From a virus: 24,640 nt of DNA. The translations under genes were made by a program, and so were the position numbers. Below are positions 831 to 15,545 of the stretch, in pieces. Positions within the stretch are counted from its first letter, which is position 1; every line of letters starts with the position of its first letter. A model generated the notes under the pieces. The model did not search any database and was not told where the DNA came from. It saw nothing but the letters and a program-made list of their open reading frames with translations. The stretch is from IMG/VR virus record IMGVR_UViG_3300042893_000505, positions 1 to 24,640 of that record, one strand, 5' to 3'.

Positions 831-1007
831 TTACTTGCTTTCTACTGTCTGATTATCAGACGCTTGGCGAGCGATAATCCATGCCTTGCGATACTCGCTG
901 ACTGCGCGGGTAAGTCTGGCGTTAGCAACTGCGGTTGTGATTACTAGCGATACTGAAACAACTAGCGCAATCATTACTGCTAGGATGTCTCCTGTTGATA
1001 GGTACAT
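831..1007 (-). CDS. Small single-pass membrane protein (58 aa)
   Basis: ATG at 1007-1005, preceded by an AAAGGAAAG Shine-Dalgarno at normal spacing; TAA at 833-831. Seen: a short N-terminus, one hydrophobic stretch at about residues 8-29 (DILAVMIALVVSVSLVITTA), then a basic tail with R, K and a tryptophan. This predicts one membrane span with a cytoplasmic C-terminus by the positive-inside rule. The gene abuts the zinc-ribbon/amidoligase gene downstream (TAACATG junction), so it probably shares its transcript. The 15-bp palindrome at 847-861 lies inside its last codons and is read as SDNQT. No family recognised; small membrane proteins of this form in phages include holin-like and superinfection-related proteins, but nothing here shows either function. 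Confidence 0.72.
   Translation of the reverse strand: MYLSTGDILAVMIALVVSVSLVITTAVANARLTRAVSEYRKAWIIARQASDNQTVESK
847..861. promoter_or_regulatory. 15-bp start-associated palindrome, copy 1
   Basis: GTCTGATTATCAGAC is a perfect 7-1-7 palindrome lying 17 bp upstream of the ATG of the zinc-ribbon/amidoligase gene, inside the 3' end of the 58-aa gene. It is identical, allowing for strand at the central base, to the copies at 1028-1042 and 1981-1995. As RNA it could form a 6-bp stem with a UAA loop just before the ribosome binding site; as DNA it looks like a dimer operator. Confidence 0.75.
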
Positions 1008-1027
1008 TGTCTTTCCTTTCGGTTGTT

Positions 1028-1042
1028 GTCTGATTATCAGAC
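1028..1042. promoter_or_regulatory. 15-bp start-associated palindrome, copy 2
   Basis: GTCTGATTATCAGAC, perfect palindrome, 20 bp upstream of the ATG of the 58-aa membrane-protein gene and immediately before its Shine-Dalgarno. If the promoter at 1075-1103 is right, the palindrome sits in the transcribed leader. Confidence 0.78.
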
Positions 1043-1074
1043 GGGTTGATGTGTGCGTTATTGCCCACTATCTA

Positions 1075-1103
1075 AATCTAGTGCATACGCATAGCAGAGT
1101 CAA
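1075..1103 (-). promoter_or_regulatory. Candidate sigma-70 promoter for the 58-aa / amidoligase pair
   Basis: On the minus strand, TTGACT (plus 1098-1103) is followed after exactly 17 bp by TAGATT (plus 1075-1080). This gives a leader of about 60 nt that includes the palindrome at 1028-1042 and the ribosome binding site. The gene upstream on this strand shows the same TTGACT box with the same spacing. Motif-based only. Confidence 0.42.
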
Positions 1104-1123
1104 GCATCTAAAATGACGGTCAG

Positions 1124-1241
1124 GACTACGGCTGAACACGACTACGGCTGAGCCCGCCCCTACCCGACACAAACCTAAAGGCGACTACGGCTGAACTCAC
1201 GACCCCCAACACAAACTAACCGACACAAACCCAACACAAAC
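1124..1241. repeat. Interleaved array of two short direct repeats
   Basis: Repeat A, GACTACGGCTGA, occurs at 1124-1135, 1140-1151 and 1183-1194. Repeat B, CCRACACAAAC, occurs at 1164-1174, 1206-1216, 1220-1230 and 1231-1241. The order is A A B A B B B, all in one orientation. The stretch is non-coding and lies between the terminators of the 212-aa gene and the promoter of the next pair. Such arrays are typical of protein-binding sites such as iterons or enhancers; which of these applies is not shown. Confidence 0.7.
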
Positions 1242-1270
1242 AAAAAACATTTTTCGCGCCCCGCGAAATG
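1242..1270 (-). terminator. Intrinsic terminator T2 of the 212-aa gene
   Basis: The minus strand reads a stem CATTTCGCG / CGCG(AA)AAATG with a GGG loop (plus 1248-1270; 9 bp with a 2-nt bulge), followed directly by TTTTTT (plus 1242-1247). It is the second of two tandem terminators behind the 212-aa gene. An alternative 7-bp stem, TTTCGCG/CGCGAAA, uses the same bases. Confidence 0.65.
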
Positions 1271-1280
1271 CGGGCATGGA

Positions 1281-1312
1281 AAAGCCCGCCCCGCGATTAA
1301 GCGAGACGGGCT
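1281..1312 (-). terminator. Intrinsic terminator T1 of the 212-aa gene
   Basis: The minus strand forms a 12-bp stem AGCCCGTCTCGC / GCGGGGCGGGCT (two G-U pairs) around a TTAATC loop, ending in CTTTTCC. It starts 13 bp after the TAA of the 212-aa gene, the standard position for a Rho-independent terminator. Confidence 0.75.
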
Positions 1313-1325
1313 AAACCCTTTGGAA

Positions 1326-1964
1326 TTATGCGGCTTGAACTATGACCGCCTTCACGCCTTGAACCGCCTCGGCATTTTTAATCGCCTTCTGCAATTCTGC
1401 GACCAACATGCGAGCCTTCTTTGTATCCTCAATTTTTGCCCCGCCTTTAAGCGCCCCGCCCAGAGATGCGATTAACTCTGAAACCGTTGCGACCTTTGGT
1501 GCTTTATCCTTCTCGCTTCCAGTTTGCTTACCCGCCCCGCGCTCGCCTTGCTTTGGGATAGTCGCTTCAATCTCATCAAGCGTTAAGCCCTTAGAGATGA
1601 GAGCGTTAAAGCCCTCGGCTTTGTGAACCTTGCGACCTTGCGTTGATACGGAAAACAGGCGCTTAAGCGTTGCGCCTTCTCCGCCTTCAATTTTGGAAAG
1701 TACGCCAACCGTTAAAACATGCTCAGCCCAAGCAGATGAGAAAGACGGAAGTGAACCGACCTTCTCGGCTTCTTTGATAGTTAATTGACCACCGCGAACA
1801 GATAGGAAACCCTGCGCCATTTGGCTATGCAATTTCCAAAACGCCTTGAACTCACTTTCCAATGACCCACCGACCACAGCCGTAAATTCTGCGACCAATG
1901 ATGCGTCTGCTTCTGATGATGCCTTTGCCTTTGGTGTTGCTTTCTCGTTCTTTGTTGATGTCAT
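1326..1964 (-). CDS. Orphan 212-aa phage protein of unknown function
   Basis: ATG at 1964-1962 is chosen because AAGGGAG lies at good spacing before it. A longer in-frame start at 1997 would translate the 15-bp palindrome and has no ribosome binding site. Seen: a lysine/alanine/serine-rich, probably disordered N-terminus (residues 1-25), a mixed alpha-type central region with a few tryptophans (about 26-140), a K/G/E-rich linker (about 140-160) and a C-terminal predicted helix rich in K, A and E. No cysteines, signal peptide or membrane span. Not recognised. It is a single-gene transcript, preceded by a promoter candidate and the palindrome and closed by two terminators. That suggests a separately controlled, possibly abundant early product. 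Its base composition is richer in G+C than the late genes. Confidence 0.75.
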   Translation of the reverse strand: MTSTKNEKATPKAKASSEADASLVAEFTAVVGGSLESEFKAFWKLHSQMAQGFLSVRGGQLTIKEAEKVGSLPSFSSAWAEHVLTVGVLSKIEGGEGATLKRLFSVSTQGRKVHKAEGFNALISKGLTLDEIEATIPKQGERGAGKQTGSEKDKAPKVATVSELIASLGGALKGGAKIEDTKKARMLVAELQKAIKNAEAVQGVKAVIVQAA

Positions 1965-1980
1965 TTCTTTGTTCTCCCTT

Positions 1981-1995
1981 GTCTGATAATCAGAC
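1981..1995. promoter_or_regulatory. 15-bp start-associated palindrome, copy 3
   Basis: GTCTGATAATCAGAC on the plus strand, perfect 7-1-7 palindrome, 16-17 bp upstream of the ATG of the 212-aa gene and directly before its AAGGGAG. Confidence 0.78.
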
Positions 1996-2019: not shown

Positions 2020-2048
2020 ATTGAATCATCTTTCCGAACCAAAGTCAA
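2020..2048 (-). promoter_or_regulatory. Candidate promoter for the 212-aa gene
   Basis: On the minus strand TTGACT (plus 2043-2048) is followed after 17 bp by TTCAAT (plus 2020-2025), a 4/6 match to the -10 consensus. The same -35 box and spacing occur at 1075-1103 upstream of the other leftward transcript, which adds weight. The leader would be about 50 nt and include the palindrome. Confidence 0.38.
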
Positions 2049-12879: not shown

Positions 12880-14246
12880 TGGCAGAGTTAACAGCAGAAC
12901 AAAAGCGTGAACGAGCCGCGGCAGACCGCGCAATGGGACGTACAACTGCGTTTGCTCAAATGGGTACTGGTTTAGATATCGGTGTTGATCCTTACTCAAC
13001 AACAGATCCATATTTGTCATATTTACAAACAACTGACCCTGTTGCAAAAGCAAAGGCTCTACAGGAACTTAATCGTAGTTTAAACATGCAACCAGGACCA
13101 GCAGGGTTTGCTGGTACTCAATTAGAGTACTTGCAGACTCTTATGCGTCGTGGTGGCTTCTCTAAGGCTAAAACACCAATAGGTGGCGGAATGATTGGGC
13201 CTGGAGATTCAGCAGGGTTAGATGCTGTTGTAGCCCTTGCCTATGCTTCTAATCAAGACCCTTTAACATATCTTGAGAACTATAACTCAACTCTTGTAGC
13301 AAAGGGTCCTAAGCAACAGGATACTACTACTAAGTATACTAAGCAGATTCAGACTGCACTACAGTTCAAGGATCTAGGCGATGCTCGCCAGTACTACAGC
13401 GATTCTTACTTTGCAGCCTATGGGTTCTATCCACCAGCAGAACTTGATAAGAAGTTCCAGGATTCTTGGAATGCAAATGTTTTGAAACAGGATAAGCCTA
13501 CTACTACAAAAACTAAGACAGAGTTTGCTCCTGTTTATGATAAGAAGAGCCAGCCTGTTATTGATAAAGCAACAGGTCAACAAAAGAAAGATAAGTTTGG
13601 CAACCTAGTTTATTCTAAGATTGCCGTAAACCAAAGCGGACAAAAGCAATACGAAACAGTAAGCACTGGAGTTTCTACATCAGAAGGTGAAGGATTTACT
13701 GCAGATGAGCAGAAGCAATTCCTTGCTACTTTCCTTTCAGAGAACTACCCTACAGCAGACTTTAATGTTGATGATGTTGGTGGTTCAGCCAAGAGTATCT
13801 ATGATGCTATTGTTGAAACACACAGGGCTAACTTTACAACTCCACCTCCGTTTGAAGCCGTGTCTGGTCTAATTACCCAAATGATTGGAACTCCAGATGA
13901 AAAGGTACAGACTGAACTGTTTAATCAATATACTGCAGATATCCAAACCAATGCAGTTACACGCTTTAACAGCCTAGGTTCAGTTATCAAGCCAGGAGAA
14001 AACGCTGCAAAGTACATAGCCCCAGTCTTAACTACCCTATCTACTATTCTTGAAAAAGAAGTTACAGCCGATAGTGAAATAGCAAAAAGAGTCTTTAACT
14101 TTACTGGTGCAGATGGAAAATTTAAAATGCCTAATGACTTTGAACTCCTTAAATTCGCTAAGTCTCTTCCTGATTATGGTAAGACATCCACAGCAATTAA
14201 CGAGTCAATAAATATTGCTCAGTCACTTAAGAATCAGTTGGGGTAG
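12879..14246 (+). CDS. Virion-associated protein of unknown function (455 aa)
   Basis: ATG overlaps the stop of the giant gene. Seen: a charged N-terminus; a Gly-rich patch GGGMIGPGDSAG (about residues 102-113); a tyrosine-rich segment ARQYYSDSYFAAYGFYPPAE (about 170-189); a Thr/Lys-rich central linker with KSQPVIDKATGQQKKDKFG (about 223-241), which looks flexible; and a helical C-terminal domain. No catalytic motif recognised. Coupling to the giant gene and position before the scaffold gene suggest a structural or internal-core partner. Confidence 0.68.
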   Translation: MAELTAEQKRERAAADRAMGRTTAFAQMGTGLDIGVDPYSTTDPYLSYLQTTDPVAKAKALQELNRSLNMQPGPAGFAGTQLEYLQTLMRRGGFSKAKTPIGGGMIGPGDSAGLDAVVALAYASNQDPLTYLENYNSTLVAKGPKQQDTTTKYTKQIQTALQFKDLGDARQYYSDSYFAAYGFYPPAELDKKFQDSWNANVLKQDKPTTTKTKTEFAPVYDKKSQPVIDKATGQQKKDKFGNLVYSKIAVNQSGQKQYETVSTGVSTSEGEGFTADEQKQFLATFLSENYPTADFNVDDVGGSAKSIYDAIVETHRANFTTPPPFEAVSGLITQMIGTPDEKVQTELFNQYTADIQTNAVTRFNSLGSVIKPGENAAKYIAPVLTTLSTILEKEVTADSEIAKRVFNFTGADGKFKMPNDFELLKFAKSLPDYGKTSTAINESINIAQSLKNQLG

Positions 14247-14249
14247 CAA

Positions 14250-15545
14250 ATGGTCGAAAAGAAAGTAGTAACTAACCAGGCTGCTATTGATGCTGCTAAT
14301 GCAAAGAATAAAGCGGCTTTAGAAAAGGCTAAAACAGCACAGGCCACAATAAGTAGACTAGAACCTGCTGTTGCACCCGCTCAACAAGTAGTTTCTAAAG
14401 CAGCAAGTTTTAGTAAACTTGCACAAAATATTGCTAAGAAAACTGGCGATGTAGCAAAGTCAAAAACTACAATTGATAAGTTTAATGCTTATGCAACTCA
14501 AGTAAGAAATGAAACACTCATTCCTTTTTCTACAGCACAGACAGATTTAAGAACAGCAATAAGTTCGCAGGTAGGTGTACCAGAAGCAATATACGAGGCT
14601 GCGCCAGATGTAAGAACAACAAATATAACAGTTCTCAAAGCCTTACTAAAAGGTCAAGGATTTAATGCTACCCTTATTGATTCATCTGCTACCTTCCTGC
14701 AAAAACTTCTTATTGAGGAAAACCTAGACTACGATAACGCAGTTGAGGTATTCTTGAACTCTAAGGATTATTCTTTTGCTGATGGTAAAACAATAACCTC
14801 TCCGTTCTATACTGAGTATGGATACCTTAATGAGGGACTTGTTAACCCTAAGTCAGCACGTGAACTATACGGTGCTGTCGAGGGCTATAAGGGCGTTATA
14901 GATACCTATGGTCTAAGCAAGAAGTATCTTAGTGTAGACTCACTAAAGGGCTATGTTAAGAACAATGTAACTGTAGCAGACCTTGCAGAGCGTGCAAATA
15001 TAAATGCTATCCGTGCAATAGAGACAGATCCATTCCAGGTCGAAGCACTTCGTAAGCAAGGCTTTATTGGTACATCAGCAAATCTTATAGATTTCTACAT
15101 GGATGAAAAGATCGGTAAAGAGCAGTTAGAACTTAACCGTCAAACTGGTGTATTTACAGCAGAAGCACTCCGCCGTGAAAAGGCTGGAGTAGTAGCATCA
15201 GAGACTCAGTTGGCTGGGTTCAAGCAACTCACAGCAACTCTTGCTGCTAAGGGTTATTCAGAGGCACAGATATCACAACTTGCTGCTACTGGCTTTGAAA
15301 ACATTTCACAGGTTATTGATCCTCTTGCTAAGTACGCAGGTATTTACGAGAAGGCTGGTGGAACTGTTGAAAGTAACCTTGCCGTTAAAGAAGGTTTACA
15401 GGCAAGCCTACTTGGAGAAGAGTTCGTAGGAACTGAATCTGAACGACGTAAGCGTCTAGCAGAACAAAACCTAAGAGCATTCCAAGGACAGTCGGGAACA
15501 ACGACTACATCCTTGAGAACCGCTTCAGTCTCAGGACTGATATAA
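14250..15545 (+). CDS. Helical virion-associated protein of unknown function (431 aa)
   Basis: Starts 3 nt after the previous stop. Seen: an Ala/Lys-rich N-terminal helix compatible with a coiled coil (about residues 10-50), a mostly helical middle, an Arg/Lys-rich helix ERRKRLAEQNLRAFQGQ (about 398-414) and a Ser/Thr-rich end. No membrane span or enzyme motif. Together with the two genes before it this forms an 8.5-kb block between portal and capsid. Not recognised. The same reading frame stays open after its TAA through the 117-nt gap into the scaffold gene. Confidence 0.68.
   Translation: MVEKKVVTNQAAIDAANAKNKAALEKAKTAQATISRLEPAVAPAQQVVSKAASFSKLAQNIAKKTGDVAKSKTTIDKFNAYATQVRNETLIPFSTAQTDLRTAISSQVGVPEAIYEAAPDVRTTNITVLKALLKGQGFNATLIDSSATFLQKLLIEENLDYDNAVEVFLNSKDYSFADGKTITSPFYTEYGYLNEGLVNPKSARELYGAVEGYKGVIDTYGLSKKYLSVDSLKGYVKNNVTVADLAERANINAIRAIETDPFQVEALRKQGFIGTSANLIDFYMDEKIGKEQLELNRQTGVFTAEALRREKAGVVASETQLAGFKQLTATLAAKGYSEAQISQLAATGFENISQVIDPLAKYAGIYEKAGGTVESNLAVKEGLQASLLGEEFVGTESERRKRLAEQNLRAFQGQSGTTTTSLRTASVSGLI

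Follow-up and report, generated by a model that had tools for sequence, protein, structure and literature searches.

Phage-specific palindromes in the leftward gene cluster of a group of environmental phages co-vary with an orphan protein gene

The leftward cluster and its palindromes

The window analysed here, a stretch of 24,640 bases, is a viral fragment (IMG/VR record IMGVR_UViG_3300042893_000505) that begins within a gene. At this end lie three genes on the minus strand, read leftward. Gene 1 (1-829) is the start of a zinc-ribbon-like gene of about 500 aa, cut by the end of the record; full-length homologues are found in relatives. Gene 2 (831-1007) encodes a protein of 58 aa that includes a hydrophobic stretch predicted to be membrane-like. 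Gene 3 (1326-1964) encodes a 212-aa orphan protein, which co-occurrence, co-variation and a predicted helical domain mark as a candidate DNA-binding regulator that would read the palindrome described below. A candidate promoter for gene 2 (TTGACT-17-TAGATT, minus strand) is found at 1075-1103, and two terminator-like hairpins on the same strand (1252-1305) occupy the gap between genes 3 and 2.

The 15-bp palindrome GTCTGATWATCAGAC is present as exact copies before gene 3 (1981-1995), gene 2 (1028-1042) and gene 1 (847-861), and with one mismatch at 299-313, within the coding region of gene 1. The copy before gene 2 is about 32 nt downstream of the -10 of the candidate gene 2 promoter, and that before gene 1 is embedded in the 3' end of gene 2. 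Allowing up to three mismatches, the motif occurs in these four places only in the 24,640 bases (8 strand-matches against 0.58 expected; none of 100 shuffles gave 8). The preliminary description, which had reported the three exact copies, the embedded one and the mismatched one inside the zinc-ribbon gene, and had noticed none in the late operon, is thus confirmed on these points, and the number of copies is far above chance. The three exact copies adjoin the Shine-Dalgarno sequences of the leftward genes on the upstream side. A gap of 17 to 20 bp to the ATG had been given for all three; this is correct for genes 1 (17 nt) and 2 (20 nt) but for gene 3 the gap is 16 nt.

A second repeat, GTTTGTGTYGG, is found on the minus strand in four copies at 1164-1241 and again at 2164-2174. 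The window has 6 matches where 0.88 would be expected; they cluster in non-coding DNA around gene 3, and the repeat is present upstream of gene 3 in relatives too. These repeats may be replication-origin iterons. Between gene 3 and the rightward terminase gene are about 775 bp (1965-2739) with no clear genes and with AT-rich parts, a candidate control or origin region.

Each related phage carries its own palindrome

A scan of viral contigs with the window's motif gave 88 stretches, and in nearly all of them the motif matched once. Four contigs had six to eight copies; these are close relatives of the window, with the copies at homologous leftward starts, and one of them (L011) was recovered again by a terminase query. 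Relatives with other types of palindrome were found through the terminase and through a conserved leftward gene of 277 aa. In all, 483 palindrome copies were counted across 67 environmental relatives. The palindrome is particular to each phage and recurs 2 to 11 times in the leftward cluster, and more than 12 sequence types are represented. Repeated palindromes in relatives include GTACGATWATCGTAC, GTTCGGAWTCCGAAC, GTTAGGAWTCCTAAC, GGTCGGAAACCGACC, GTACGGAWTCCGTAC, GGTCGGAWWCCGACC, GTTGGATWATCCAAC, GCAGGATWATCCTGC, GTAGGATWATCCTAC, GTGGGGAWTCCCCAC, GCTCGGATTCCGAGC and GTGCGATAATCGCAC, together with 16-bp types (GTTTGGAWWTCCAAAC and the degenerate GTACGATATATCGTAC). In L118, L117 and L266 a degenerate 16-bp palindrome (GTAYGATATATCRTAC) is paired with a distinct branch of gene 3.

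In the 41- to 43-kb records G013, G018 and G019 all copies (≤ 2 mismatches) fall in one block of about 5 to 6 kb, the leftward cluster. Of the 483 copies, 48% end 5 to 40 nt before a leftward start codon, compared with 7.6% for random positions in the same span, most of these start-linked copies being 11 to 25 nt from the start. A further 29% are inside open reading frames (79% for random positions), including copies in the same gene of about 500 aa that holds the 299-313 copy of the window, and 22% are elsewhere. Judged by eye, a copy usually sits immediately ahead of the terminator hairpin that closes the cluster, and a second one just past gene 3. The motif had been described as preceding every leftward start codon. 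This is true of the three starts visible in the window but not of the relatives, where some overlapping genes have no site and about half of the copies are start-linked. The sequence of the motif, moreover, is specific to the phage type and not universal.

The palindromes seem to be replaced in place: before the same start codon L021 and L214 share identical flanks, and the palindrome is all that differs. In L153 (1300-1345) two copies upstream of gene 3 are separated by just 30 bp, the one tandem pair of this kind noticed.

Gene 3 changes in step with the palindrome

Homologues of gene 3 were found in the motif-bearing relatives wherever the place of gene 3 is covered. Among records spanning the gene 3 interval, 48 had both gene 3 and repeats, 27 had neither, none had repeats alone and 2 had gene 3 with degenerate repeats (Fisher P about 1e-18). 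In relatives without gene 3, different small genes occupy the same interval in the terminase direction (L259, 4866-5411, minus strand; L151, 9154-9594, plus strand), and these may be an alternative regulator module.

Presence apart, the sequences of the pair co-vary. Across 49 phages motif distance was correlated with gene 3 distance (r = 0.63, partial Mantel P = 0.0005), but not with the distances of six other genes of the neighbourhood: the 277-aa gene and terminase (both -0.01), a 64-aa gene (0.06), the gene of about 500 aa (0.08), gene 2 (0.13) and a WhiB gene (0.15). Gene 3 proteins are 64 to 69% identical within the window's type and 18 to 27% identical in a further 23 aligned relatives, none of them of that type, although the terminases are often 80 to 96% identical. 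One example is L093, with a terminase 96% identical, a gene 3 protein 22% identical and a different palindrome. Because gene 3 changes in step with the palindrome, the two have the look of a DNA switch paired with its reader protein.

Searches of Pfam, PHROGs and PDB sequences gave no match for gene 3, and tblastn with the window's gene 3 against 50,697 phage records gave none either; a single-protein search with it recovered same-type relatives only. AlphaFold2 predicted a confident helical domain for residues about 10 to 140. Foldseek gave matches at noise level only, with both the full and the domain models; the best match of the domain was Noc (7nfu, E 1.1, probability 0.18). With ParB from the ParB-parS complex (6t1f) the alignment extends across the entire domain, at Z 3.3 and rmsd 7.2, and comparisons with Noc and ParB DNA-binding domains in general (Z 2.3 to 3.3, rmsd 6 to 7) provide a lead only.

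A single residue of gene 3 tracks one base of the site. Residues 77-91 (1692-1736, minus strand) form a predicted helix, the candidate recognition helix, and the column of E81 (1722-1724) predicts base 3 of the half-site. In 12 site classes glutamine in this column goes with A (5 of 5 classes); the window's type combines glutamate with C, arginine is found with G, and other residues go with T. This was the best of all columns of gene 3 (P = 0.006 after correction by shuffling, with classes that are few and not fully independent; L320 was included and L107 left out). A further data set gave three new phages with glutamine and A, and one, L320, with arginine and G. L320 misses the letter set by the prior rule that other residues go with T but fits the chemistry, arginine-guanine being a standard contact. 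Lysine in column 81 is ambiguous, as it goes with G in L107 and with T in the 16-bp type.

One alternative is that the protein acts in the manner of ParB, Noc or KorB, loading at the palindromes and then spreading or bridging DNA, which would silence the cluster or organise the genome instead of blocking individual promoters. Multi-copy palindromes in one 5-kb block would suit such nucleation, Noc and ParB are the proteins to which the domain was matched, and a helix glutamine of Noc also reads adenine (PMC7383237). However, the fold scores are those of noise, no ParB/Srx CTPase domain was detected by Pfam in the 212-aa protein (nor any ParB match in 26 gene 3 members of about 212 aa) and no ParA-type ATPase was found in 15 records, which may be incomplete. 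Nucleation of this kind is unlikely.

A probable DNA site rather than an RNA hairpin

For the window's palindrome the preliminary description had offered a repressor operator, a GATAAT -10 box with dyad symmetry or an RNA hairpin controlling translation. The first is supported, since a phage-specific palindrome co-varies with one co-localised protein gene. The position of the palindrome relative to promoters bears on the others. Relatives share a conserved gene 3 promoter (TTGACN, about 17 nt, CATAAT-like), and a weak candidate in the window (TTGACT-17-TTCAAT, 2020-2048, minus strand) is in the same place. Where automatic calls were obtained, the nearest palindrome was 11 to 43 bp upstream of the gene 3 -35 in 19 phages and downstream in two. 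The site is downstream of the candidate promoter in a number of cases (the window, L025, L104, L105, L156 and others), and inspection by eye places it between promoter and start codon in the window and several other types.

If the palindrome acted as RNA, a hairpin with a stem of 6 to 7 bp and a loop of 1 to 3 nt in the leftward mRNAs would control translation or intercistronic cleavage, and gene 3 would encode an RNA-binding protein. Half of the copies are just before a Shine-Dalgarno sequence and the arms remain complementary across types, as expected of a hairpin. Nevertheless, where the gene 3 copy precedes the TTGACN promoter, as in 19 phages, it would be outside the gene 3 mRNA, and other copies are within coding regions or directly before terminators. 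The centre base on the sense strand was A in 183 copies and T in 196, showing no strand preference for what would be the loop; wobble-type mismatches in the arms (19 G-U against 10 A-C) are in no clear excess and no Rfam family matches. The location upstream of the -35 and the unbiased centre base make a DNA element much likelier, and the hairpin is disfavoured to the point of being very improbable. With its centre base either A or T, the window's site can be described as a 7+1+7 palindrome.

The presence of GATAAT in the window's motif is what suggests a sigma-70 -10 element whose dyad symmetry is accidental. However, most other types (for example GGTCGGAAACCGACC, GTTCGGAWTCCGAAC and GTTAGGAWTCCTAAC) have no -10-like hexamer at orthologous positions, and promoters can be placed elsewhere. 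A chance repeat is excluded by the shuffles and by the association with gene 3, and a mobile repeat is opposed by the replacement between identical flanks in L021 and L214. Taken as one, these explanations have a negligible probability.

The upstream location in 19 phages is also what would be expected of an activator, with gene 3 protein bound upstream of the -35 recruiting RNA polymerase to the leftward promoters. It does not account for the phages, including the window, in which the orthologous site is downstream of the candidate promoter, for the variable spacing to the promoter or for the many copies within genes or before terminators, and activation is improbable.

Proposed role of gene 3

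The palindrome is rather likely to be a multi-copy double-stranded DNA operator, read by the gene 3 protein and controlling the leftward operon, probably negatively. Several copies of the operator would be spread over the leftward (early-type) cluster, and their reader would be encoded by the gene at the head of that cluster. From the sequences we infer direct binding by the gene 3 protein, its dimerisation and its regulatory effect; the protein is probably a homodimer, given the perfect two-fold symmetry of the site. Its most likely effect would be to control the leftward operon negatively, with the sites at the gene 3 and gene 2 promoters providing autoregulation of the operon, and those between genes, within genes and before terminators obstructing RNA polymerase in the manner of stoperators.

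The more than 12 specificities among close relatives resemble the immunity specificities of repressors. Given this resemblance, the gene 3 protein may also choose which superinfecting phages are silenced, although that it decides which of them are switched off is speculative. The most natural guess is that the radiation of specificities serves heteroimmunity between co-infecting phages. A classical role in immunity is not obvious, because neither a tyrosine or serine integrase (32 records) nor an HTH_3 repressor (15 records) was found, in records that may be incomplete.

The host is probably a freshwater actinobacterium, as judged from the kinship of the terminase with those of phages E7 and F5, to which it is 58% identical. 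E7 and F5 are cultured 'Ca. Planktophila' phages (PMC10202952); they have neither gene 3 nor palindrome repeats. A search of bacterial genomes with the terminase gave no relative. In G018 a WhiB-like gene lies in the leftward cluster (15106-15435, minus strand) and a sigma-factor-like gene ends the converging operon (13324-14028, plus strand), which fits an actinobacterial host.

It is possible, but tentative, that gene 3 represents a new orphan family of DNA-binding proteins, of no confidently known fold, in one group of freshwater phages apparently without integration genes, with operators that have radiated into more than 12 types, all those of a genome being rewritten in place and in concert, and with a half-site base 3 that can be read from one helix residue. 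Such a system would be a natural experiment in which a regulator and all of its dispersed sites change together, and an immunity-type race of specificities among phages that show no sign of genes for lysogeny. It suggests that an immunity-like repressor system can be present where no integrase is evident. A puzzle of hairpin or operator has thereby become a testable protein-DNA code, with natural variants of protein and site available from environmental sequence, and an entry is provided to gene control in an abundant and almost unstudied group of phages.

Comparison with known systems

The preliminary description had likened the motif to the start-associated sequences (SAS) of cluster K mycobacteriophages, and the likeness is one of position: both are repeats before the start codons of non-structural genes. 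SAS are fixed asymmetric 13-mers that include the Shine-Dalgarno, 3 to 7 bp from the start (GGGATAGGAGCCC), and the accompanying ESAS are inverted repeats that differ between subclusters (PMC3203893). The palindromes differ from SAS in sequence and in being symmetric, placed upstream of the Shine-Dalgarno and variable between phages, with half of the copies away from starts.

With ParB-parS and Noc-NBS the present system shares palindromic sites and a (predicted) helical reading domain. It differs in the absence of a detected CTPase domain or ParA, in a fold match at noise level and in the sequences of its sites.

The stoperators of cluster A phages (L5, Bxb1) are asymmetric 13-bp sites, mostly in one orientation, present 20 to 30 times per genome and dispersed over it, and read by a monomer (PMC6550527, PMC9283540). 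Cluster A phages are temperate, with an integrase or ParABS. Site and repressor co-vary between phages (PMC6550527), and the structure of a repressor is available (PMC9283540). In both systems a phage carries a single short site many times over, at gene boundaries and promoters, the site consensus co-varies with the regulator (here gene 3, r = 0.63) and the phage encodes a small protein (the repressor is about 23 kDa in cluster A). In contrast, the sites described here are perfect palindromes, in 2 to 11 copies and in the leftward cluster only (as checked in G013, G018 and G019), and the protein is an orphan with no relation seen, in phages whose records gave no integrase (32 searched) and no ParA (15 searched). 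Neither a profile search against PDB sequences nor Foldseek gave, for gene 3, a repressor of the L5/TipsytheTRex type among the matches, absence from a fold list not being proof. Membership of the cluster A stoperators is unsupported, given the symmetry of the sites, their small number and their restriction to one operon, a protein for which no relation was seen, and the failure to find lysogeny genes in the records searched.

In phiC31 the repressor sites are conserved inverted repeats in many intergenic regions, and the symmetric sites of the window and its relatives, in multiple intergenic regions, are similar in this respect. Like L5, phiC31 has dispersed repressor binding sites (18 to 30 in these phages), and it is a temperate phage whose three-isoform repressor is encoded by a gene downstream of the virion genes (PMC4557955). 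Here, unlike in phiC31, the sites are of more than 12 types, and a single 212-aa protein heads the leftward operon.
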